Shown: positions 8,113 through 41,370 of the stretch, in pieces
How positions within the stretch are numbered: the first letter of the stretch is position 1
Layout of the letters: every line of letters starts with the position of its first letter
Source of the DNA: Ignavibacteriales bacterium
Lineage (GTDB): Bacteria; Bacteroidota; Ignavibacteria; Ignavibacteriales; SURF-24
Assembly (NCBI GenBank): GCA_026390815.1
Contig: JAPLFH010000005.1
Location: 1 to 62,365 of the forward strand
Direction of reading: 5' to 3'
Length of the DNA: 62,365 nt
Made by a program: the position numbers and the translations under genes
The notes under the pieces: generated by a model
What the model saw: the letters and a program-made list of their open reading frames with translations, nothing else
Databases searched by the model: none
What the model was told of the DNA's origin: nothing

Positions 8113-11100
8113 TTATTTCTGTTCAACTATTTTAATTTCTTCTTCTGTTAAGCCGTAAAGTTTATAAACTAATTCGTCAATTTTCTTTTCAAGTTCATTG
8201 GTGTCGGTTTGTTGGTCCTTGCTTTTTACAGCTATTATTTTTTCAACGATTTTTACAAAGTCATTTTGATTTTTAGCTTTCTTAATTCGCAATTGTCCAA
8301 CAGGTCCAGGATAATACTCAAATCGATAATCCATTAGTTTACCGTAACTCTTAAAATAAAAATCAAGCAATTTTGAGTTTACTAATGCAAGTATAAATTT
8401 CAAGTCATACTCTTTTGCATACTCTTTTTTCAAAGCAACTATTGTAGTGTCTGCACTTGAATAAAATTTCTTTTCGTCTAAAGCAAATGTGTTTTTAGAA
8501 GCTTTAAAACGGCAGACTAATTTATGGCTGTTAAATGTGTCAGGGTCTCGTCCCCATTGCAAATCATACCACCTAAGTTTACCAGATTTTGCCTCTCTGC
8601 GTTCTGAAAGTTTTTCTTTGAATTGCGTTAATCTCTTAAGTAATTCAGGATATTCAGCAATATCTTCAATTTCGTTTGTGTAAATTAATTGTCGATCTTC
8701 AACTGGATTAATTGAATACCTTGTAATGTCGCCAACCTTAATCCAAGTTTTTACAAATTTTTTGGGAATGCTTTTAAATTCTTTTGTTGTTGTAATAAAC
8801 GCTTTATCAAGTCCTGTAACAATGCCTTGTGTACAATTTGCAATGGTTTCTAAGAGCACTGTTTCGATCTCAATTTTCTTATAAATATTTAATTCGCTTT
8901 CCTCTCCGAATACCCATTTTGATTTATTTTTTATATCGTCATTAAAAATTGAAATTGTTGTGAAGTTTTCTATTTCAACGGACTTTATTTTTTTGCTGTC
9001 AATATATTTGTAGTTGAAAGTATCTCCTTTTTTCGCCTCTCTTTTTTGAAATGTTGCTATTGAAGTCTTTATTCCAATACCGTCGAAAATGGTTACATTT
9101 TTAAAGTCGATAATTTCTTTAATGGAGAACGTATTGGCTAATGACTTTCTTAGTTTTTCGGCAAACTCCGCTTCAAGCCAGTAGCGTGAGGTGATATAAC
9201 TGATAATACCGTTTGATTTAATTGCTCTTAAACCTTGTAAAAAGAAATAATAATAAATGTCGGCTTTGCCGTCAAATATTTCTTTGAAGTTGTTTTTAAA
9301 AACTTCTCTTTCTGCTTGGGAATACATTTTAAAATTTACGTAAGGTGGATTACCAATAACCACATCAAATCCATCAAATTCTCCTGCATTATTCAACACT
9401 TCTGGAAATTCAAAACGCCACTCAAAAGAATTCTTATAAATGGCATTGCTTTTTATTTCTTCAATTTCTTTAAAGAGTTTATTGATATCAAATTCTAACT
9501 TTTGTTGCTTTTCCTTTTGTGATTTTTTCTGTTTGCTGTCCAGTTCGAACAACTTGCCTTGGGTTAACAAAGTGTCAAGATCACCGCTTAGGTTTTTCAA
9601 TTTTATTTGTTTGGAATCATTTTTGCCTATTTCAGTTCTAAAATCGCTTTTAATACTATCAATAATTTTTTGCAAATCTCTTTTTACATCACGATTTTTT
9701 TCATTTTTATAATCGTTCACAAAACCTCTGTATGCCTCCATATCATACTTAATACTTTTAAGAGCTTTGCTCAAATCTGCATCTAATGCAAAACGGCTTA
9801 ACAAACTGTTTCCACATTTTATGTTGATGTCAATATTTGGAAGTGTTTCTAATTCCTCAAACACTTCGCCTCCGCTTTGTGTAACGGTTGGCTTGTAGTA
9901 AGCATTTTTCAAGAGCTCTATCCACAAACGCAAACGACAAATTTTTACAGAGTTAGGATTGATATCAACTCCAAATAAACAGTTTTCAATAATGGTTTGC
10001 TTTTCGTGAAAAAGAGTTTTTTGAAGCCGCTGAATTTCCTTACTTATTGGTTTACCGCCTTGTAGTTTATATTCTAAAATATTGCCTTTCGGATCGGTAA
10101 TTATTAGTTCATCATTTACAATTTCAATTTCGTAACCGCTGATGCTGTTGCCTTTTTGGTCTGCAAGTATTCCTAATTCTGCTTTTATACTTATTATTTC
10201 ATTGAGTGATGAAACCAGGAAATGACCTGAACCTACGGCTGGATCGCAAATGCGAAGTGAATTGACTATTACATTGGCTTTTAAAATGTCCTGCGTTTTA
10301 AAAAGTTGTGAAGTGTAATTTTTTACATCTTCAAATTTGTCGAACAAAGATTTTCCATTTGGAGATAATGCTGCATTAAATTTTTCTACCACAGCCAAGC
10401 GGATTGACTGTTTGCACATATACATTGTTATAAATCCAGGAGTAAAAATTGAACCATCTTTGTAGCCGTTTATTTTCTCAAACACTTTACCAAGCACCGA
10501 TGCATTGATAAGGGTTTTGTTGTCTTCCTGAACATCTTCTGTCCCTTCACTGGCAAAGTCATAAGCATCTAAAAACTGAAAAAGATAATCCAGGGTAGGC
10601 AGCTTGTTTGCCTTCTTCTTTATATCTTTTAAAATGGTTGTATTGATTAATTCAAGTTGTCCTTCATTATCAAGCGAATTGATTTTGATTGTTCGGTCTT
10701 CCAATTCACTGATTTCAAAAAGCGAACTGTTTAAGTATGGAATACGGTTGTATTTTCTTTTTATTGCCTCCGTTCTATCATTTAGGTTTACTGCTAAAAC
10801 TTTGTGAAAGAGTTTAAATAATTCGTCAAAGTCGTTTATAGTTTCGGTGTTTAAAAAACGATAATCTTTGTTGCCTTGATGATAAGTTATTAATTGTCCT
10901 TCCAGTAATTTGAGAAATAAAATCCTGTTTATCCAGGTAATGCAAAGCTCTAAGGAAACATTGAAAATTCTTTCGTCTTTGGTTTCTCCGTAACTAGTTT
11001 GGTCGGGTAGGCGATGAAATGGATCGTCTGTAATTAACGCTTCAATGGTCGCTTCGATAATGGAAGCTGTGTTGCGGTTTACATTTTTTCTTCTGATGAT

Positions 11101-11913
11101 GTTTTTGCCATTTTCTTTCGCTTCTTCCAGTCCAATGATGTGAAGCAGTTCCTTGTAAAACTTTTCGTCAAGTGAATTGCTGTCATTTGGCGTTGCAATT
11201 TTTAATAAATGCTGTGGAGAAAGTATTTTGAGCAATGCACTTAATTCTCTATCATCTTCTTTTTTATTGTTTCTTAAAATAGTGTCGTACTCTCTGATGT
11301 CGAAGTAAACGCAAGGAATGTCAACATCCATTTTGGGAACTATTTTAGCAATTTCCTCATAAAACCAAGGATTGTCTTTTTTGTCGTTGAGTTTAGTTTC
11401 GTAAAGTTTTTTGATTTGTGTATTGCGGTAAATATGCTTGTCAAAATAGTTAGCGTCTATGATATACCACTCGTTTACATTGGTCATCACAAGCTGTTTC
11501 AATTGGTTGTTACCAGCCTGGATTCTCTCGTCTAAATAATAAAGTATAAGTTCGTGAAGTGCTTTTTTGTTGGGATTGTCAGCCGAAACCATTTCGTTAA
11601 TGTTGGTCGGTCGTTTGGCTTCAATGATTACTCCAACTTCGCTGTCGGTGGTTTTGCCTAAATGAATTACTAAATCCTTTCTGTCTTTGGTATTGATGGC
11701 GTTGGTGTCTTTGTAGAAGGTGTCTCGCAAAAAATCACGCAGATCGTTTTTTAAGTGTTCTTCACTTTCATCTTTAGGTCGGCTTTCAATAGCACTAATC
11801 CTGGCAAGCAAAGCGATCAGGTTTGTTTTGAAAAGATCTATTTCACTTCGCAAAGGTTTTTGCTTTAAGAATGCTTTGAGTGCTTTTTTCGGTGTATGCG
11901 TTGCTAATTTCAT
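8113..11913 (-). CDS. single-chain type IIG restriction-modification enzyme (Eco57I-like)
   Basis: 1266 residues, the right size for fused nuclease, N6-adenine methyltransferase and specificity domains. The N-terminal part has a PD-(D/E)xK-like nuclease signature with E98-x-K100 (GVIIEAKRP) preceded by D in DLVIHLG. The methyltransferase has SAM motif I DPAVGSGHF from D557 and catalytic motif IV NPPY at 855-858, confirming adenine methylation. The last 250 or so residues (from ANCTQGIVTG) are a TaqI/Eco57I-type target-recognition region ending in a coiled coil. One chain therefore probably both cuts and protects. The frame is intact. It stands alone on the minus strand, downstream of cassette-like genes. 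Confidence 0.9.
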   Translation of the reverse strand: MKLATHTPKKALKAFLKQKPLRSEIDLFKTNLIALLARISAIESRPKDESEEHLKNDLRDFLRDTFYKDTNAINTKDRKDLVIHLGKTTDSEVGVIIEAKRPTNINEMVSADNPNKKALHELILYYLDERIQAGNNQLKQLVMTNVNEWYIIDANYFDKHIYRNTQIKKLYETKLNDKKDNPWFYEEIAKIVPKMDVDIPCVYFDIREYDTILRNNKKEDDRELSALLKILSPQHLLKIATPNDSNSLDEKFYKELLHIIGLEEAKENGKNIIRRKNVNRNTASIIEATIEALITDDPFHRLPDQTSYGETKDERIFNVSLELCITWINRILFLKLLEGQLITYHQGNKDYRFLNTETINDFDELFKLFHKVLAVNLNDRTEAIKRKYNRIPYLNSSLFEISELEDRTIKINSLDNEGQLELINTTILKDIKKKANKLPTLDYLFQFLDAYDFASEGTEDVQEDNKTLINASVLGKVFEKINGYKDGSIFTPGFITMYMCKQSIRLAVVEKFNAALSPNGKSLFDKFEDVKNYTSQLFKTQDILKANVIVNSLRICDPAVGSGHFLVSSLNEIISIKAELGILADQKGNSISGYEIEIVNDELIITDPKGNILEYKLQGGKPISKEIQRLQKTLFHEKQTIIENCLFGVDINPNSVKICRLRLWIELLKNAYYKPTVTQSGGEVFEELETLPNIDINIKCGNSLLSRFALDADLSKALKSIKYDMEAYRGFVNDYKNEKNRDVKRDLQKIIDSIKSDFRTEIGKNDSKQIKLKNLSGDLDTLLTQGKLFELDSKQKKSQKEKQQKLEFDINKLFKEIEEIKSNAIYKNSFEWRFEFPEVLNNAGEFDGFDVVIGNPPYVNFKMYSQAEREVFKNNFKEIFDGKADIYYYFFLQGLRAIKSNGIISYITSRYWLEAEFAEKLRKSLANTFSIKEIIDFKNVTIFDGIGIKTSIATFQKREAKKGDTFNYKYIDSKKIKSVEIENFTTISIFNDDIKNKSKWVFGEESELNIYKKIEIETVLLETIANCTQGIVTGLDKAFITTTKEFKSIPKKFVKTWIKVGDITRYSINPVEDRQLIYTNEIEDIAEYPELLKRLTQFKEKLSERREAKSGKLRWYDLQWGRDPDTFNSHKLVCRFKASKNTFALDEKKFYSSADTTIVALKKEYAKEYDLKFILALVNSKLLDFYFKSYGKLMDYRFEYYPGPVGQLRIKKAKNQNDFVKIVEKIIAVKSKDQQTDTNELEKKIDELVYKLYGLTEEEIKIVEQK

Positions 11914-11933: not shown

Positions 11934-12144
11934 ATTAGGTTGTAGAGTTAAGTTTAAAAACAATGTTTATTTTAAATGTGCAATCAAACAGTTGTCTTTA
12001 GTAATTCCAGTAAAATATTTTTACACTCAAACTTAACAGCCTGGTTTTATTATTCAAAACTTTTTTATTTCAGTTTTGAGAAATGATCTATACAAATGCT
12101 GAATGCGAAAACGGCGTCCGCCTTGATTGGCGGGTTAGGTTGTT
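11934..12144 (-). repeat. cassette-type spacer 3 (attC-like, incomplete)
   Basis: Read in gene direction, this 211-bp spacer begins two bases after the lipoprotein stop with AACAACCTAAC, then CCGCC-AATCAA-GGCGG and ACGCCGTTTTCGCATTCAGCATTTG. The same order of motifs begins spacer 1. It lacks the second half (ATTATTGGCG...GCAACG) found in spacers 1 and 2, and ends just before the restriction gene. It is the likely downstream recombination site of the lipoprotein cassette. Confidence 0.45.
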
Positions 12145-12146
12145 TT

Positions 12147-12683
12147 TTACCTTTTATAAATGATAAAAGTATTTGACGTATCACTTAATGTATCAACTGA
12201 AGTTTGAGAAACAGTTTTGTAGTAATTTATTCTCAATCTAAATTTCCCAATACTGTTTGAATCCAGATATGCTGTTGCGTGAAGATTATATTTTCTCGAT
12301 GGAAGTATTCTTATAATTTTACTCCCTTCGAATAATATTCCACGATTCAATTGCTTCCAATTGTTATCACCAATATTTTTTTCAAAATAACCGTCAGTCC
12401 CTTCTGCAATCAGCAATTTATCGTGGTCAATACCAGCAGCATAACCATCACCTAAATTTGTGTAAAATGTATCTGAAGATGAATTAATAACTGTAGCTAA
12501 AACTAAAGCAAAACTATTAGAAAAATCATCGCCAATATAAAACTCAGATTTCTCTGTTTTTATTTCTAAATTTCCATAGAAATCTTTTTCGTTTGGTATC
12601 AGTGGATTGTTATCATTTGAACAATTCCAAGAAAATAAAATAGCTAATGCTATTAAAGTTGTTTGAATAAATATTTTCTTCAT
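12147..12683 (-). CDS. predicted lipoprotein of unknown function
   Basis: 178 residues. A lipoprotein signal peptide is clear: MKK, a hydrophobic stretch, then a lipobox-like FSWNC with the cysteine at residue 21, followed by Ser/Asp/Asn (SNDNNP), as in Bacteroidota surface lipoproteins. The rest is beta-rich (EFYIGDDFSNSFALVLATVINSSSDTF...), with an immunoglobulin-like look and no identifiable motif. The gene is bracketed by an exact 11-bp inverted repeat (12134-12144 and 12712-12722), so it probably arrived as a mobile cassette. Confidence 0.75.
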   Translation of the reverse strand: MKKIFIQTTLIALAILFSWNCSNDNNPLIPNEKDFYGNLEIKTEKSEFYIGDDFSNSFALVLATVINSSSDTFYTNLGDGYAAGIDHDKLLIAEGTDGYFEKNIGDNNWKQLNRGILFEGSKIIRILPSRKYNLHATAYLDSNSIGKFRLRINYYKTVSQTSVDTLSDTSNTFIIYKR

Positions 12684-12711
12684 AACTTCTTATCCATTAT
12701 TATTTTTGTAG

Positions 12712-12909
12712 AACAACCTAACGACGTTGCGCCTAACCCGCAGCCCATAACAACAATGCAACTTTGAAAAACAAACGCCAATAATTTTATAATTACTTTT
12801 TTATTGCGACCTACTTTAAAGAGCAACTACCTTTTACAACGCTACTTTATAACAACACAAATGTCGCAATGTTTAAAGCAGTCGGCCTTGAAGAACAGGT
12901 TATACAACT
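12712..12909 (-). repeat. cassette-type spacer 2 (attC-like)
   Basis: 198 bp between the 187-residue gene and the lipoprotein gene. In gene direction it starts with AGTTGTATAAC, which overlaps the stop codon of the first gene. It continues with CATTGCGACATTTGTG and ATTATTGGCGTTTGTTTTTCA, and ends with GCGCAACGTC-GTTAGGTTGTT just before the next gene. Its two ends are not complementary to each other. Each is instead complementary to the far end of the neighbouring gene (see findings), as for integron R''/R' core sites. Confidence 0.55.
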
Positions 12910-13463
12910 TTTACTTGTTGAAATAGTTTATCCCATTCCTTTTCAGCAATTCTAATTAGTTCAAATGAATCAATAATTTCATTTTCATTACAATCATAAA
13001 CGGGCAAAGATAATTCAGCGTCATTTGCCTCTTTAGGATCAATCTCGACTTCATCTTTATAAAAAGTAATCTTAGCAATATTATTTTGAGAAATAGTCAC
13101 TTTCAGTTTACCCAATTTGGGGAACAATCCAGATCTACTTTCACGTAAGGTAGAATGCTTCAATCGATTCGCAATATCGCCAGACACTTTTAGATTGATG
13201 TCATTGTTCACAAAATCTTCTATCATCTGCTTGTTTTTAGATATTGATTTTAAATAGTCTTTCAAATTCCACAGCCAAAGGAAATAATTTTCAACATCGT
13301 CTTGGATGCTTTCAAAATCACGAAATTTATGAATTGTATATTTGGTTGTTGTTCCATCATCAAAAGTATAACTCCAACCAGTTCCTTTACCACCAAAATC
13401 ACTCAATTTTTTATTAAGTCTGCTAAGTTTTGAAAACAATATTAATATTTCACTGTATTTCAT
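12900..13463 (-). CDS. hypothetical protein in a cassette-like unit
   Basis: 187 residues from the ATG at 13463. A longer frame reaches 13535, but its extra 24 codons translate the repeat element, so it is rejected. The sequence (KLSRLNKKLSDFGGKGTGWSYTFDDGTTTKYTIHKF, then NYFLWLWNLKDYLK, NRLKHSTLRESRSG) matches no family I can name. A helical N-half and a beta C-half are likely. There is no signal peptide or membrane segment. AGTTGTATAAC at 13465-13475 abuts the start, and its exact complement lies over the stop (12899-12909). Confidence 0.7.
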   Translation of the reverse strand: MKYSEILILFSKLSRLNKKLSDFGGKGTGWSYTFDDGTTTKYTIHKFRDFESIQDDVENYFLWLWNLKDYLKSISKNKQMIEDFVNNDINLKVSGDIANRLKHSTLRESRSGLFPKLGKLKVTISQNNIAKITFYKDEVEIDPKEANDAELSLPVYDCNENEIIDSFELIRIAEKEWDKLFQQVKVV

Positions 13464-13657
13464 TAGTTGTATAACGGCGTTGCTTTTCACCCGTCCGCCA
13501 CAAACAGCAATACTGGGATGAAAAACTACCGCCAATAATATTTAACAATTTTATTTATTAGAACAATGTTGCAAGTTATGCTTACCTTTTTCACCTAACC
13601 CGATAATTAGAAAAATGTCACAATGAAAAACGGCGTTTATTTTATTAGCGGATTAGA
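13464..13657 (-). repeat. cassette-type spacer 1 (attC-like)
   Basis: In gene direction it begins in the last codons of the 359-residue gene (TTCTAATCCGCTAATAAAA), passes ACGCCGTTTTTCATTGTGACATTT and CGGGTTAGGTGAAAA. A second, similar half follows: ATTATTGGCGGTAGTTTTTCAT, ACGGGTGAAAAGCAACGCC, GTTATACAACT. The two halves look like diverged direct copies of about 95 bp each, within the size range of integron attC sites. Confidence 0.5.
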
Positions 13658-14716
13658 ATTTTTTTTACGCAATTTCTCCATATAGAATTTTTCTAAATCA
13701 TCCAGATTAATATTTGACAATTTTGTATGTGCGTTTTGAAACCAATCTTTTATTTTCTTCAAATTATTGATGTCCTCTTCTTTTTCTAAATTATCAATAA
13801 TATTTTGCAAATAATTTAGTATGCCTTCTGAATGATATTTTAAACGAGAAAAAATATATTCCTTATTCTCGATGAAAAATCTCTGATAATCTTTTTGAGA
13901 ATTAAATAGATTAAAGAATTTATATTTAATCTTACGAAAGTATTTTTGAAATCTCCCTTTAAGAGATAACTGATTTTTATTTTTAATCGTGTCTTTTAAA
14001 TTGGGAAAGACAGTTATTAAACCTTCACCATATTCTTTTAGGAAATCTAAATTCTTTTTGGCTTTCATAAAAAATGCATAGCTTGCCAAAACGCCATATT
14101 TAGGAATGAATAAAAACTGAAGTGTAATAAAGGTAAGCCACCAAGAAGAAAACAGTTCTAACTTTTTATAAATATCTTCAATTCTGACAAATGATATTTC
14201 TGTTTCTTTATTATCGCATATCGCAACTATAGTTGAACTCTTAACAGTAAACCTATGGTTTTTCCCATTTCTAATTATTCTCATTTCTTCAATTGTTTTG
14301 GAATCTAATCCAAATGCCCTTAAATGACTAAATACAGCTGTCTTCTCATTTAGACTAATTAATGGTGCTTGAAAATCTGACAATAAATATGAGGCAAATT
14401 TATAAAGTGATGCTATTTCCCAATGCATTGAGATAATAGAAATTTTCTTGTAAATACATTCTTCTTGCTTATTAACACTAGCAAGTATAGTTGTATAAAT
14501 ATCACTGGTAAATGTTTCATTTAAAATATCAATAACAATTTGTGGTTTTTGTAATACAATATTTTCCAGATTATCAAAAGCCCTTGATGAAATAGCATTA
14601 TAATTTTTAAAATGCTTTTCTAAATATTTTAAGGTATCAGTTTTTCTTGATGAAAGAATTTCTTCTTTCCCAAGGAATTCAAATATTGTTTGTTCAAAAT
14701 CAAATTTTACTTTCAT
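13637..14716 (-). CDS. hypothetical 359-residue protein
   Basis: No family recognised. The protein is helical and Lys/Phe-rich. A stretch at about residues 187-218 (LELFSSWWLTFITLQFLFIPKYGVLASYAF) is hydrophobic enough for one membrane segment or a buried helix. The KRKK-rich region before NLFNSQKDYQRFFIENKEYIFSRLKYHSEGIL suggests a cytosolic helical tail. No catalytic motif is visible. Its 3' end overlaps the start of cassette-type spacer 1. A matching inverted repeat at its 5' end could not be confirmed. Confidence 0.65.
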   Translation of the reverse strand: MKVKFDFEQTIFEFLGKEEILSSRKTDTLKYLEKHFKNYNAISSRAFDNLENIVLQKPQIVIDILNETFTSDIYTTILASVNKQEECIYKKISIISMHWEIASLYKFASYLLSDFQAPLISLNEKTAVFSHLRAFGLDSKTIEEMRIIRNGKNHRFTVKSSTIVAICDNKETEISFVRIEDIYKKLELFSSWWLTFITLQFLFIPKYGVLASYAFFMKAKKNLDFLKEYGEGLITVFPNLKDTIKNKNQLSLKGRFQKYFRKIKYKFFNLFNSQKDYQRFFIENKEYIFSRLKYHSEGILNYLQNIIDNLEKEEDINNLKKIKDWFQNAHTKLSNINLDDLEKFYMEKLRKKNSNPLIK

Positions 14717-15092: not shown

Positions 15093-15345
15093 TCATTTAT
15101 ATTCTTGAAATCCAAGTTTTTTAAGCTTCATTAAAAGTTCATCTGCGCTTCTTTTAATATTATAATCTTTTGATTCTTTAGTAAACGCAATTTGTATTGC
15201 CTTGTACGGTTTATCAAACATATTATTTTCAAAATACAAATATGCCAGCCTTTCATAAAACAATCCTCTCTGCGGTTGGTCCTTTATGGCAGCTTCCCAA
15301 AAGTTTAGTCCATTTTTGTATTTAGCTGATTGTAAAACATTTAAT
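15093..15345 (-). pseudogene. C-terminal fragment of a TPR-like protein
   Basis: A minus-strand frame without a credible start reads NGLNFWEAAIKDQPQRGLFY, then a YERLAYLYFEN repeat helix, KAIQIAFTKESKDY and ADELLMKLKKLGFQEYK before a TGA at 15093-15095. The periodic helix pattern with A/Y/L positions is that of a tetratricopeptide repeat tail. Going upstream, the frame runs into the GC-rich terminator of the oxidoreductase operon, with no ATG and no ribosome site. The gene body has been lost, probably by deletion. Confidence 0.55.
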
Positions 15346-15409: not shown

Positions 15410-15967
15410 CTAACTCTGCATTAAAATTCCTTCAGCTAATTCCATCCCTCGTTTTAGTGCTTGCTCATTCAGTGGTAATAAATGATGATATCTTTCGGGA
15501 AGAACTTTCTTCAATCCTTTTAAAATGTTTTCGAACTCAATGATTGGCTTTTTCTTTAAAAAAGCACCAAGCATAATCATATTTAGAATTTTAGTATTCT
15601 TCATTTTAGCTGCTTCGTTAGCTGCATCAATACCCACTATATCAATGTCAGTTCTGGTTGGAGGATTAACTGAAGTGGAGGTATCATACAAAAACAGCCC
15701 ACCTGGTTTTACAGCTTTTTCAAATTTATCTATCGATGGTTGATTTAAAGCTATCACAGTATCGAATTTTGTAAGTATTGGTGAACTGATCATCTCTTCA
15801 CTGATAATTACAATACAGTTAGCTGTTCCGCCGCGCATCTCTGGTCCGTAGGAAGGCATCCAGCTTACTTCTTTATTTTCCATTACTCCAGAGTAACAAA
15901 GTATTTGTCCCATTGAAAGAACACCTTGTCCGCCAAACCCTGCAATTACAATTTCTTCGTTCATCAT
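15410..15967 (-). CDS. 2-oxoacid:ferredoxin oxidoreductase, gamma subunit
   Basis: 185-186 residues from an ATG at 15967 preceded by GGAGG; the in-frame ATG at 16000 lies inside the upstream gene and is rejected. The gamma (catalytic-domain) signature is present: EIVIAGFGGQGVLSMGQIL, SWMPSYGPEMRGGTANCIVIIS, and FDTVIALNQPSIDKF. It is the last gene of a delta-alpha-beta-gamma operon. The enzyme decarboxylates 2-oxoacids oxidatively to acyl-CoA and reduces ferredoxin, under low-oxygen conditions in most known cases. The gene set is most like VOR/KOR-type enzymes; the exact substrate is inferred. Confidence 0.9.
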   Translation of the reverse strand: MMNEEIVIAGFGGQGVLSMGQILCYSGVMENKEVSWMPSYGPEMRGGTANCIVIISEEMISSPILTKFDTVIALNQPSIDKFEKAVKPGGLFLYDTSTSVNPPTRTDIDIVGIDAANEAAKMKNTKILNMIMLGAFLKKKPIIEFENILKGLKKVLPERYHHLLPLNEQALKRGMELAEGILMQS

Positions 15968-15968
15968 A

Positions 15969-16790
15969 TTATTTTTCCTCCTTTGGAACTTTAAGATCAC
16001 CTAATGGATAATATGGAATCATATTTTCTTCCATCCATTTATTTGCTTCAACAGGAGTCATCTTCCAGTTGGAAGGACAATTAGAAACAATCTCAACAAA
16101 GGATAATCCTTTTTTAAGTTTCTGATATTCAAATCCTTTTTGAATTGCTTTCTTTGCTTTGCGTACATTACCCGGAGTGTTTACGGCTTGCCTGGTGCAA
16201 TAATATACTCCCGGAAGATTAGCAACAAGGTCGGTAATCTTTAATGGATTTCCCATCGTAACAACATCTCTTCCAAATGGTGATGTTGTCGATTTCATTC
16301 CTGGTAAAGTTGTTGGAGCCATTTGTCCACCGGTCATTCCATAAATTCCATTATTGATAAAAACAATTAGAATATTTTCCCCACGGTTGCAGGTATGGAT
16401 AGTTTCACCTGTTCCAATTGCAGCTAGATCTCCATCACCCTGATAAGAGAAAACATATTTATCAGGTAGAACTCTTTTAATTCCAGTAGCAACTGCAGAG
16501 GCTCTTCCATGCGGAGCTTCCTGCATATCAATATTAAAATAATGGTATGCGAAGACAGAGCAGCCAACCGGAGCAACACCAACTGTTTCGGATTGGATTC
16601 CAAGTTCATCAATCACTTCTGCAATAATTCTGTGTGCAACACCATGTCCGCAGCCCGGGCAATAATGGAATGGAGTATCGGTAAGTGTGGTTGGTCTTTC
16701 ATAAACCAGATTTTCGTTTATACAAACACTCTCTTCGGAAAGAACTTCTTCAAAGTGTTTTTCTTCTTCTAAAAGTATTTTCTCGTTCAT
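15969..16790 (-). CDS. 2-oxoacid:ferredoxin oxidoreductase, beta (TPP-binding) subunit
   Basis: 273 residues. YCPGCGHG at 43-50 supplies C44 and C47. The thiamine diphosphate motif is GDGDLAAIG at 118-126 followed by NNGIYGMTGGQ from 146. The beta subunit carries the cofactor that attacks the 2-oxoacid carbonyl. It overlaps the alpha-subunit gene by 4 bases (ATGA) and ends 1 base before the gamma start. Length and motifs are complete. The closest naming by overall look is VorA/KorB. Confidence 0.92.
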   Translation of the reverse strand: MNEKILLEEEKHFEEVLSEESVCINENLVYERPTTLTDTPFHYCPGCGHGVAHRIIAEVIDELGIQSETVGVAPVGCSVFAYHYFNIDMQEAPHGRASAVATGIKRVLPDKYVFSYQGDGDLAAIGTGETIHTCNRGENILIVFINNGIYGMTGGQMAPTTLPGMKSTTSPFGRDVVTMGNPLKITDLVANLPGVYYCTRQAVNTPGNVRKAKKAIQKGFEYQKLKKGLSFVEIVSNCPSNWKMTPVEANKWMEENMIPYYPLGDLKVPKEEK

Positions 16791-17857
16791 ACCAATTCTC
16801 CTACAAATTTTTCTTCAAGTTTTGCAAGAATTTCTTCAGGCGAAGGAATAACTCCCCCCATTCTTCCAAGGAATTCAACCCGGACTTTTCCATTAACTGA
16901 CAATCTAACATCTTCTACCATCTGACCAGCATTCATTTCAACATCTAAAAATCCTTTTACACTATCCGCTAAATTGTTTATCTCTTCATAAGGAAATGGG
17001 AATAAGGAAATCGGTCTCATTACACCAACTTTAATTCCCTTTTCCCGTGCAAGAATAGCAGCTTTATGGCAGATTCTTGCAACTAATCCAAACGCTACTA
17101 AAATAAATTCTGCATCATCGCATAACATTTTTTCAAAACGAAGTTCTTCTTTTTCAATTTCTTTATACTTCTTTTGTAAATGAATATTTATCTCTTCCAT
17201 TTTATCAGATTCCATATGCAGTGAAGTATGTATGTTGCGTTCTCTGTCTTTTGGTTTACCAACAGTAGCCCATGATTCAATTGAAGTAATGCGTGGTTGC
17301 TGTTCAAACAGTTCAACCTTTTCCATCATTTGTCCAATTGCACCATCTGCTAAAATCATTACAGGATTGCGCCATTTGAATGCAAGTTCAAATCCAAGTT
17401 TAACAAAATCAACCATTTCCTGAACGGTAGATGGAGCAAGAACAATCATTTTATAATCGCCGTGTCCGCCTCCTTTAACAGCCTGAAAGTAATCTCCTTG
17501 TGAAGGTTGAATTGTTCCTAATCCTGGACCTCCGCGTACAACATTTACAAGCAAACAAGGAATTTCAGCACATGCGATGTATGAAATACCTTCCTGCATT
17601 AAACTTATTCCTGGACTTGAAGATGAAGTCATAACTCTTTTACCGCAACCACCAGCACCATAAATCATGTTTATTGCTGCAATTTCGCTTTCAGCCTGAA
17701 GCACAATCATTCCTGTTCGCCTGTTTGCTTCAAGGCTTAAATACTCCAGCACTTCCGATTGTGGGGTAATGGGATAACCAAAATAAGCATCGCATCCGCT
17801 GCGTATAGCTGCTTCTGCCATTGCTTCGTTACCTTTCATTAATTTTAGTTCTTTCAT
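16787..17857 (-). CDS. vorB: 2-oxoacid:ferredoxin oxidoreductase, alpha subunit (VorB-like)
   Basis: 356 residues, typical of the short VorB-type alpha chain. The N-terminal pyrimidine-binding motif reads AYFGYPITPQSEVLEYL at about 24-40. Next come the ESEIAAINMIYGAGGCGKRVMTSSSSPG block and the C-terminal transketolase-like domain (GLVARICHKAAILAREKGIKVGVMRPISLFPFP). It overlaps the ferredoxin subunit gene by 4 bases. The name reflects similarity to 3-methyl-2-oxobutanoate oxidoreductase; 2-oxoglutarate as substrate cannot be excluded. Confidence 0.88.
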   Translation of the reverse strand: MKELKLMKGNEAMAEAAIRSGCDAYFGYPITPQSEVLEYLSLEANRRTGMIVLQAESEIAAINMIYGAGGCGKRVMTSSSSPGISLMQEGISYIACAEIPCLLVNVVRGGPGLGTIQPSQGDYFQAVKGGGHGDYKMIVLAPSTVQEMVDFVKLGFELAFKWRNPVMILADGAIGQMMEKVELFEQQPRITSIESWATVGKPKDRERNIHTSLHMESDKMEEINIHLQKKYKEIEKEELRFEKMLCDDAEFILVAFGLVARICHKAAILAREKGIKVGVMRPISLFPFPYEEINNLADSVKGFLDVEMNAGQMVEDVRLSVNGKVRVEFLGRMGGVIPSPEEILAKLEEKFVGELV

Positions 17858-18141
17858 GATGCCACCGTTAATGTCATATCTTTAGAAACATTTGAAATGG
17901 TAGCAACGTGTTCTTTTTTGTTAAGCGTTTTTCGATATACTTTGATGATGCCCTCCGGGCAGACCAATGCGCAGTTAGTACAACCAGTGCAGTTATCTTC
18001 TATCCTTACGATATAATGATAACCTTTCGAATTTATTTTTTTCGAAAGTTGCAGCGAGTCTTGTGGACAAGCAACAGCACAGAGTTCGCATCCTTTGCAT
18101 TTTTCAATATCAACAAAGATATCTCCTTTCACTTTAGCCAT
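17854..18141 (-). CDS. ferredoxin-type delta subunit, two [4Fe-4S] clusters
   Basis: 95 residues. Two complete CxxCxxCxxxCP motifs: C15-C18-C21-C25 and C51-C54-C57-C61. This subunit passes electrons from the TPP site to external ferredoxin. It is the first gene of the operon, with AGGTG before the ATG, and overlaps the alpha subunit by 4 bases. The tail after residue 75 is short and variable. Confidence 0.92.
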   Translation of the reverse strand: MAKVKGDIFVDIEKCKGCELCAVACPQDSLQLSKKINSKGYHYIVRIEDNCTGCTNCALVCPEGIIKVYRKTLNKKEHVATISNVSKDMTLTVAS

Positions 18142-40854: not shown

Positions 40855-41370
40855 GTCCCGTCAGGGACGAAATATTCTTATTCAGGTTCTCTTAAAATGT
40901 ATCGTTCATCAAATTCAATGTTATAGGCTTTAAGCCACGATTTATACTCTTCGGTAAAGGTTATTTTTTTATGGTGCTGTTCTTGATTCTTTATGTAATT
41001 GATTACTCTTGATAAATGTGAATGACTGTATGAGAATGCTCCATATCCTTCCTGCCACGCAAATTTCGAGCGTGTAAACTTACTTTCATTAATCCATTTT
41101 GATGAACTACCTTTTATATCCTGAAGCAAATCAGATAATGATTGATGAGGTCTATAACCGATTAGTATATGAACATGGTCTGCAACTCCATTAATTATAA
41201 CTAATTTGTGTTTTTGTGCTTGAATAATTCCAGTAATGTATTTGTACAATTCATCCTTCCATATACCATCAATAATTGCCCTTCGGTATTGCACAGCAAA
41301 AATTATTTGAATATGAATTTGTGTATACGTGTTGCTCATTGTTGTATGCAATATTTCGTCCCTATGGGAC
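40855..41370 (-). mobile_element. REP/RAYT unit framed by inverted hairpin repeats
   Basis: The Y1 transposase gene lies between GTCCCGTCAGGGACGAAATATT (40855-40876) and the inverted AATATTTCGTCCCTATGGGAC (41350-41370). Both consist of the arm AATATTTCG plus a GTCCC...GGGAC hairpin. Extra hairpins lie outside: AATCCCAGAGGGATT (40802-40816) and AGTCCCTAACGGGACT (41407-41422). This is the layout expected for REP sequences with their cognate transposase. Confidence 0.75.
40878..41339 (-). CDS. REP-associated tyrosine transposase (IS200-like, Y1_Tnp)
   Basis: 153 residues from the ATG at 41339; the upstream ATG at 41351 lies inside the terminal repeat and is less likely. The HUH metal-binding motif is DHVHILIGY and the catalytic tyrosine is in the helix VINYIKNQEQHHKK. 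Such enzymes cut and join single-stranded DNA at hairpins. The stop codon is 2 bases from the left repeat. The frame is intact. Confidence 0.92.
   Translation of the reverse strand: MSNTYTQIHIQIIFAVQYRRAIIDGIWKDELYKYITGIIQAQKHKLVIINGVADHVHILIGYRPHQSLSDLLQDIKGSSSKWINESKFTRSKFAWQEGYGAFSYSHSHLSRVINYIKNQEQHHKKITFTEEYKSWLKAYNIEFDERYILREPE

Follow-up and report, generated by a model that had tools for sequence, protein, structure and literature searches.

The inverted repeat around a lipoprotein gene

Why should a small lipoprotein gene lie between two exact, inverted copies of an 11-bp sequence? The gene in question encodes a predicted lipoprotein of 178 aa at positions 12147-12683, minus strand, of the window (the whole stretch of DNA that was analysed, 62,365 nucleotides from an Ignavibacteriales bacterium); it is an ORF with no Pfam family, and its translation has a lipobox-like LFSWNC near the N-terminus. 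The initial annotation had noted the inverted repeat and attributed it to integron-cassette logic. Both arms were found where it had placed them (GTTAGGTTGTT at 12134-12144 and AACAACCTAAC at 12712-12722, in plus-strand positions), and the 4.52-Mb assembly of 59 contigs has no further exact copies beyond these two. Read on the coding (minus) strand, GTTAGGTTGTT runs from 12722 to 12712 ahead of the start of the lipoprotein gene and has the position of an R' end, while AACAACCTAAC runs from 12144 to 12134, 2 nt past the stop, and has the position of an R'' end. The further remark that GTTAGG fits the integron core consensus GTTRRRY is borne out by the core at 12722-12716 on the coding strand; it does not hold for the plus-strand copy at 12134, which is R'' read backwards.

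Taken alone, the 11-bp repeat is suggestive, not decisive, because 0.4% of draws give an exact inverted match of at least 11 bp when 60-nt flanks from this AT-rich window are paired at random, and because 2 of the 42 other genes tested have longer ones (an A-rich low-complexity 13-mer at one, a 12-mer around an IS200-like gene at the other). It is the surroundings of the repeat that decide. They make it very probable (about 0.95) that the lipoprotein gene belongs, as an integron gene cassette, to a short orphan array of the CALIN type with no fewer than two cassettes and three attC sites, the sites being oriented like the genes. The evidence, all of it drawn from sequence, consists of attC anatomy, covariation, cross-gene complementarity, arrays of the same type elsewhere in the genome and, in relatives, an integron integrase (IntI) together with the same type of attC. 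The integron-cassette proposal for the lipoprotein gene is thus upheld, its flanking spacers being recognizable as attC sites by covariance model, covarying arms and complementarity across the gene.

As to the IS200-like gene just mentioned, it encodes an IS200/RAYT-like transposase at 40878-41351 and lies inside the exact 12-bp inverted repeat AGGGACGAAATA.

Anatomy of the spacers

The spacer ahead of the lipoprotein gene is similar to its neighbour and also to the spacers on three other contigs of the same genome (C9, C15 and C17), where they separate small, same-strand, mostly accessory genes. In gene direction, the 5' end of a spacer reads TAAC-CAGC-nnn-TCAAG-cnGACnGC and its 3' end reads GGGCnGC-GGCTTA-nnn-GCAACGTC-GTTA. 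An integron attC site is built in this way: R'' and L'' are followed by a long variable middle, and this by L' and R'. The TAAC/GTTA core pairs are kept in 10 to 13 of 14 sites, and the R' boxes of the first and second window sites are GTTATAC and GTTAGGT, respectively. In L'', an unpaired C is present in 13 of the 14 sites, and so is an unpaired A. The first extrahelical base is known as the determinant of strand choice in recombination (PMC2727003).

The arms covary. In a structure-free alignment of 14 spacers, 83.6% of cells pair between the arms vs 32-42% after a shift of one arm by 1-3 columns, a control that is biased toward the structure, which was drawn by eye from the same 14 sequences; matches to held-out sites are independent of that bias. 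Changes on both sides of a pair occur in 33 cells, compared with a shuffle mean of 14.7, and none of 500 shuffles reaches 33.

The initial annotation had named an attC covariance model as the check to be made, and it comes out in favour of the proposal. The model (R1) was built from 14 spacers of the own genome with the window site at 13466-13661 left out, and it matches three window spacers, all on the strand of the genes (minus). Attachment site 1 (13466-13661), complete and held out of the model, scores 96.7 bits (E 6.6e-17 in a 141-kb search, model E-values being rough). Site 2 (12713-12908), also complete and lying between cassette 2 and cassette 1, scores 148.5 bits, its sequence being in the training set. 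Site 3 (11967-12143), at the end of the array, scores 31.7 bits (E 2.6e-4, similarly rough); it has a good 5' half (R''/L'', at about 12080-12143) and a 3' half that is degenerate or lost. Outside the array, the window has no full-length match to the model. Nor does Rfam have any family that matches in the window.

Complementarity across genes

In integron cassettes, the R'' that follows a gene is complementary to the bases ahead of the same gene, since both derive from one attC of the circular cassette. The lipoprotein gene (cassette 1) conforms: its upstream edge is the R' end of site 2 at 12712-12722 (GTTAGGTTGTT on the minus strand, fitting G^TTRRRY), and its R'' end at 12134-12144 (AACAACCTAAC on the coding strand), which begins the third site, is the exact 11-bp complement across the gene. 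A second cassette, missed in the initial annotation, has a repeat of its own. Its gene encodes 187 aa at 12900-13463 on the minus strand, an ORF with no Pfam family and with its stop codon inside R''; it is bracketed by a 10-bp repeat, GTTATACAAC at 13466-13475 (the R' end of site 1 and upstream edge of the cassette, minus strand, identified by sequence and flank complementarity) and GTTGTATAAC at 12899-12908 (its R'' end, minus strand). With the R' flank of site 1 taken in, both window cassettes match over 11 bases across their genes.

A comparison that took in all sites of the own genome and of a sister genus (G004) found flank complementarity of at least 9 bp across the gene in 9 of 24 pairs of neighbouring sites, within a site in 1 of 39 cases, and in 5 of 1458 other pairs (permutation of neighbours, p about 5e-5). 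Complementarity that is cross-gene rather than within-site is what cassette exchange would leave as its footprint. In the mechanism that we propose, IntI, which the own assembly does not encode, would have acted on attC sites in the form of their folded bottom strand, with recombination at the G^TT of R'. A cassette would thus bear TTRRRY and a few more bases upstream, matching the R'' downstream, and these edges would appear as an inverted repeat across the gene.

Other readings of the locus have to be weighed against the integron cassette. That AT-rich flanks match here by chance, in no relation to the gene, draws some support from the frequency of such matches in random flank pairs and from the two window genes with longer ones, but the repeat coincides precisely with the R'' box of one attC-model match and the R' box of another, the same arrangement is present at other cassettes of the own genome and of G004, and the permutation test across neighbouring sites refutes it; coincidence is scarcely credible here. 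It is about as hard to believe that the array is the remnant of a transposon or composite element, with the 11-bp repeat as its terminal inverted repeats and the lipoprotein gene as cargo. Inverted repeats around a single gene would suit that origin, as would the IS91-like elements in arrays of this genome; against it, there is no transposase between the repeats and no terminal sequence common to the cassettes, each of which has its own repeat.

The spacers might instead be a dispersed non-integron repeat (REP- or MITE-like, or an RNA element) that has come to lie between genes by accident. They do form a repeat family, and single copies exist elsewhere (on contigs C24, C41, C12 and C32). A plain repeat would, however, pair inside its own copy, whereas the flank complementarity joins different copies across genes; the placement of the sites on the strand of the genes, the extrahelical bases of L'', the adjoining IntI in relatives and the lack of an Rfam family also speak against it. 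We regard this origin as very unlikely, and an integron cassette array as the reading that the evidence favours.

Surroundings of the array and gene content

Upstream of site 1 lies a 359-aa gene (13637-14716, minus strand) whose end overlaps the site. It is a possible third cassette, with an unconvincing upstream edge (ATTAG only). The array is flanked on one side by an Eco57I-like restriction-modification enzyme (8113-11913, minus strand; PF07669, DUF7149, DUF7814), which is not a cassette by present evidence, and on the other by a conserved kor-type operon (of the 2-oxoacid:ferredoxin oxidoreductase type; 15410-18141, minus strand) that is syntenic in relatives. The accessory region begins directly after the kor operon, and the genes there differ in each relative, so that no clean empty site can be defined. 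Between the kor operon and the 359-aa gene there is also an 80-codon open stretch without a clear start (15096-15335, minus strand, LQSAKYKNGLNFWEAAIKDQP...); it is likely a gene remnant, and no match to it was found downstream of the kor operon in relatives.

With the cut-off at E<=1, the model matches the own genome 31 times, for the most part in gene arrays (C9, C15, C17, C5); in two relatives from the same family it matches nothing. Finding the same spacers beside different genes had been put forward as a further check, and they are so found, in three other arrays of the own genome and in G004. The attC sites follow gene orientation, with one or a few genes per site and variable gene content, and the DNA that is common to the arrays of the own genome and those of G004 is mostly the attC sites themselves. 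Model matches outside the main arrays of the own genome (G000) are located at C24:176067, C41:149031, C41:57079, C12:57220 and C32:101502, which suggests scattered insertions; one scattered C41 site sits between an NAD-kinase-like and a dGTPase-like gene.

Neither cassette gene 2 nor the 359-aa gene has a relative among the 163 other genomes of the order. The lipoprotein has two (66% and 60% identity) among the 164 genomes of the order, in two other families; a search for it in named genomes found nothing. The DNA similarity between the lipoprotein gene and these relatives breaks off a few bases or less from the start (in G128) and from the stop (in both), a point in favour of the cassette reading. 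Neither relative adjoins an attC site, which counts against the cassette reading and means that the gene also exists as an ordinary gene. Comparing it with its non-cassette relatives within the order is relevant to the question of how cassettes arise from ordinary genes.

The integrase

The initial annotation had also pointed to an IntI-type integrase elsewhere in the genome as something to look for. For the own assembly the result is negative: the best match to TIGR02249 scores 121 bits against a cut-off of 265, and there is no intI and no attI. The arrays on C9, C15 and C17 have their 5' ends at contig ends, so that an unassembled IntI is possible. The 121-bit match comes from a tyrosine recombinase inside the C9 array, beside a spacer; it was weighed as a candidate for the missing IntI but discarded, since an IS91-type transposase follows it and the IntI patch region is lacking.

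Outside the own genome, G004, a sister genus with a contig that matches the MAG Ignavibacteriales SURF_24, has a full IntI, at 418.8 bits, that aligns over its full length, patch region included, with the V. cholerae IntI (PDB 2A3V). In G004 the IntI gene is followed, on its own strand, by an attI-like junction (GTTATACGTT), then by a single gene, the first cassette, and then by a same-type attC whose R'' is complementary to that junction. IntI is above the cut-off in 57 of the 164 genomes of the order, sites that match the model at E 1e-5 or better are present in 117 of 160, and in at least 12 genomes (G022, G044, G052, G068, G076, G099, G103 and G120 among them) IntI and model sites lie within a few kb of each other, nearly always on the same strand. 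We infer that the cassettes of the window were placed by IntI. One attC type in 117 of 160 genomes and IntI in 57 of 164 imply a large, little-described cassette pool in the Ignavibacteriales; what the own genome has in the window is an orphan mini-array with no integrase near it.

The classic integron layout has the integrase divergent from the cassettes. In G004 (L075:7365-9830, on contig C3), by contrast, integrase gene and cassettes share a strand, and the same is true of most IntI/attC neighbours of the order.

Predicted folding

Folding of the spacers as single sequences yields no consistent attC hairpin; the support for the attC structure proposed here comes from covariation and not from energy. 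When energies are computed with DNA parameters, 2 of 14 sites are predicted to adopt the recombination fold, but for most, the window site included, it is not the favoured one: there, the enforced fold has a probability of 3.6e-10 on the bottom strand, and L-box pairs are seldom predicted. The poor predicted folding, the lack of IntI and attI in the own assembly and the incomplete third site are points against the cassette reading. Known long attC sites are also weak folders. The sites of the window are putatively still able to recombine.

Relation to known integrons

Integrons are best known from the Proteobacteria. Integrons in Ignavibacteriae are already published, IntegronFinder 2.0 having reported complete ones in Chlorobi and Ignavibacteriae (PMC9024848), and the array of the window is a small CALIN among them. 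A full-text literature search, in which few subscription papers were covered, found no paper centred on the integrons of Ignavibacteria. The complete chromosomal integrons of Ignavibacteriae and Chlorobi belong to the same class, and G004, with its IntI, attI-like junction and model-matched attC, resembles them; unlike these, the own genome lacks IntI. What defines a complete integron, an intI with patch domain and an attI, is absent from it. In the terms of IntegronFinder (PMC9024848), attC sites that cluster in the absence of an integron integrase are a CALIN. The array has two or more such sites, its cassettes share a strand, and IntI is lacking both in the vicinity and in the assembly as a whole; but the window has only two cassettes and one truncated site, and the larger arrays of the genome end at contig breaks.

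Comparison with the attC of aadA1, whose sequence was confirmed in plasmid records, as an example of the sites of mobile integrons, shows the same R'' ending in TAAC, the same GTTRRRY at R' and a similarly asymmetric central spacer; TCAAG vs TTAAG and GAC vs GC in the L boxes leave the same unpaired bases (C and A). In contrast, the sites described here are 170-230 bp long with a long AT-rich terminal part, like those of large chromosomal integrons, and their L stem is extended and includes three covarying pairs (alignment A1, columns 19-21).

IS91-like elements at attC sites

An IS91-like element beside attC has been reported in Shewanella (PMC9229058). In the own genome (G000), an element of this kind, encoding a Y2 transposase and an IntI-like tyrosine recombinase that lacks the patch segment, lies inside an attC on C9 (L025:13825-16136). 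The IS91-like terminus, G(T/A)TATAAAG, stands directly after TAAC in all five copies or fragments (L025 on C9, L027:2927 on C17, and C41 near 41071, 45000 and 56078). Because all five termini follow TAAC and one of these has a supported R'', IS91-like elements may use integron sites as a home. Tentatively, and with rather more doubt than confidence, we suggest that in this lineage IS91-like elements with a patch-less IntI-related tyrosine recombinase insert specifically behind the R'' of attC, perhaps as a dedicated home, and so enlarge cassettes. The supported case is the terminus on C17, where the preceding R'' box is backed by cross-gene complementarity.
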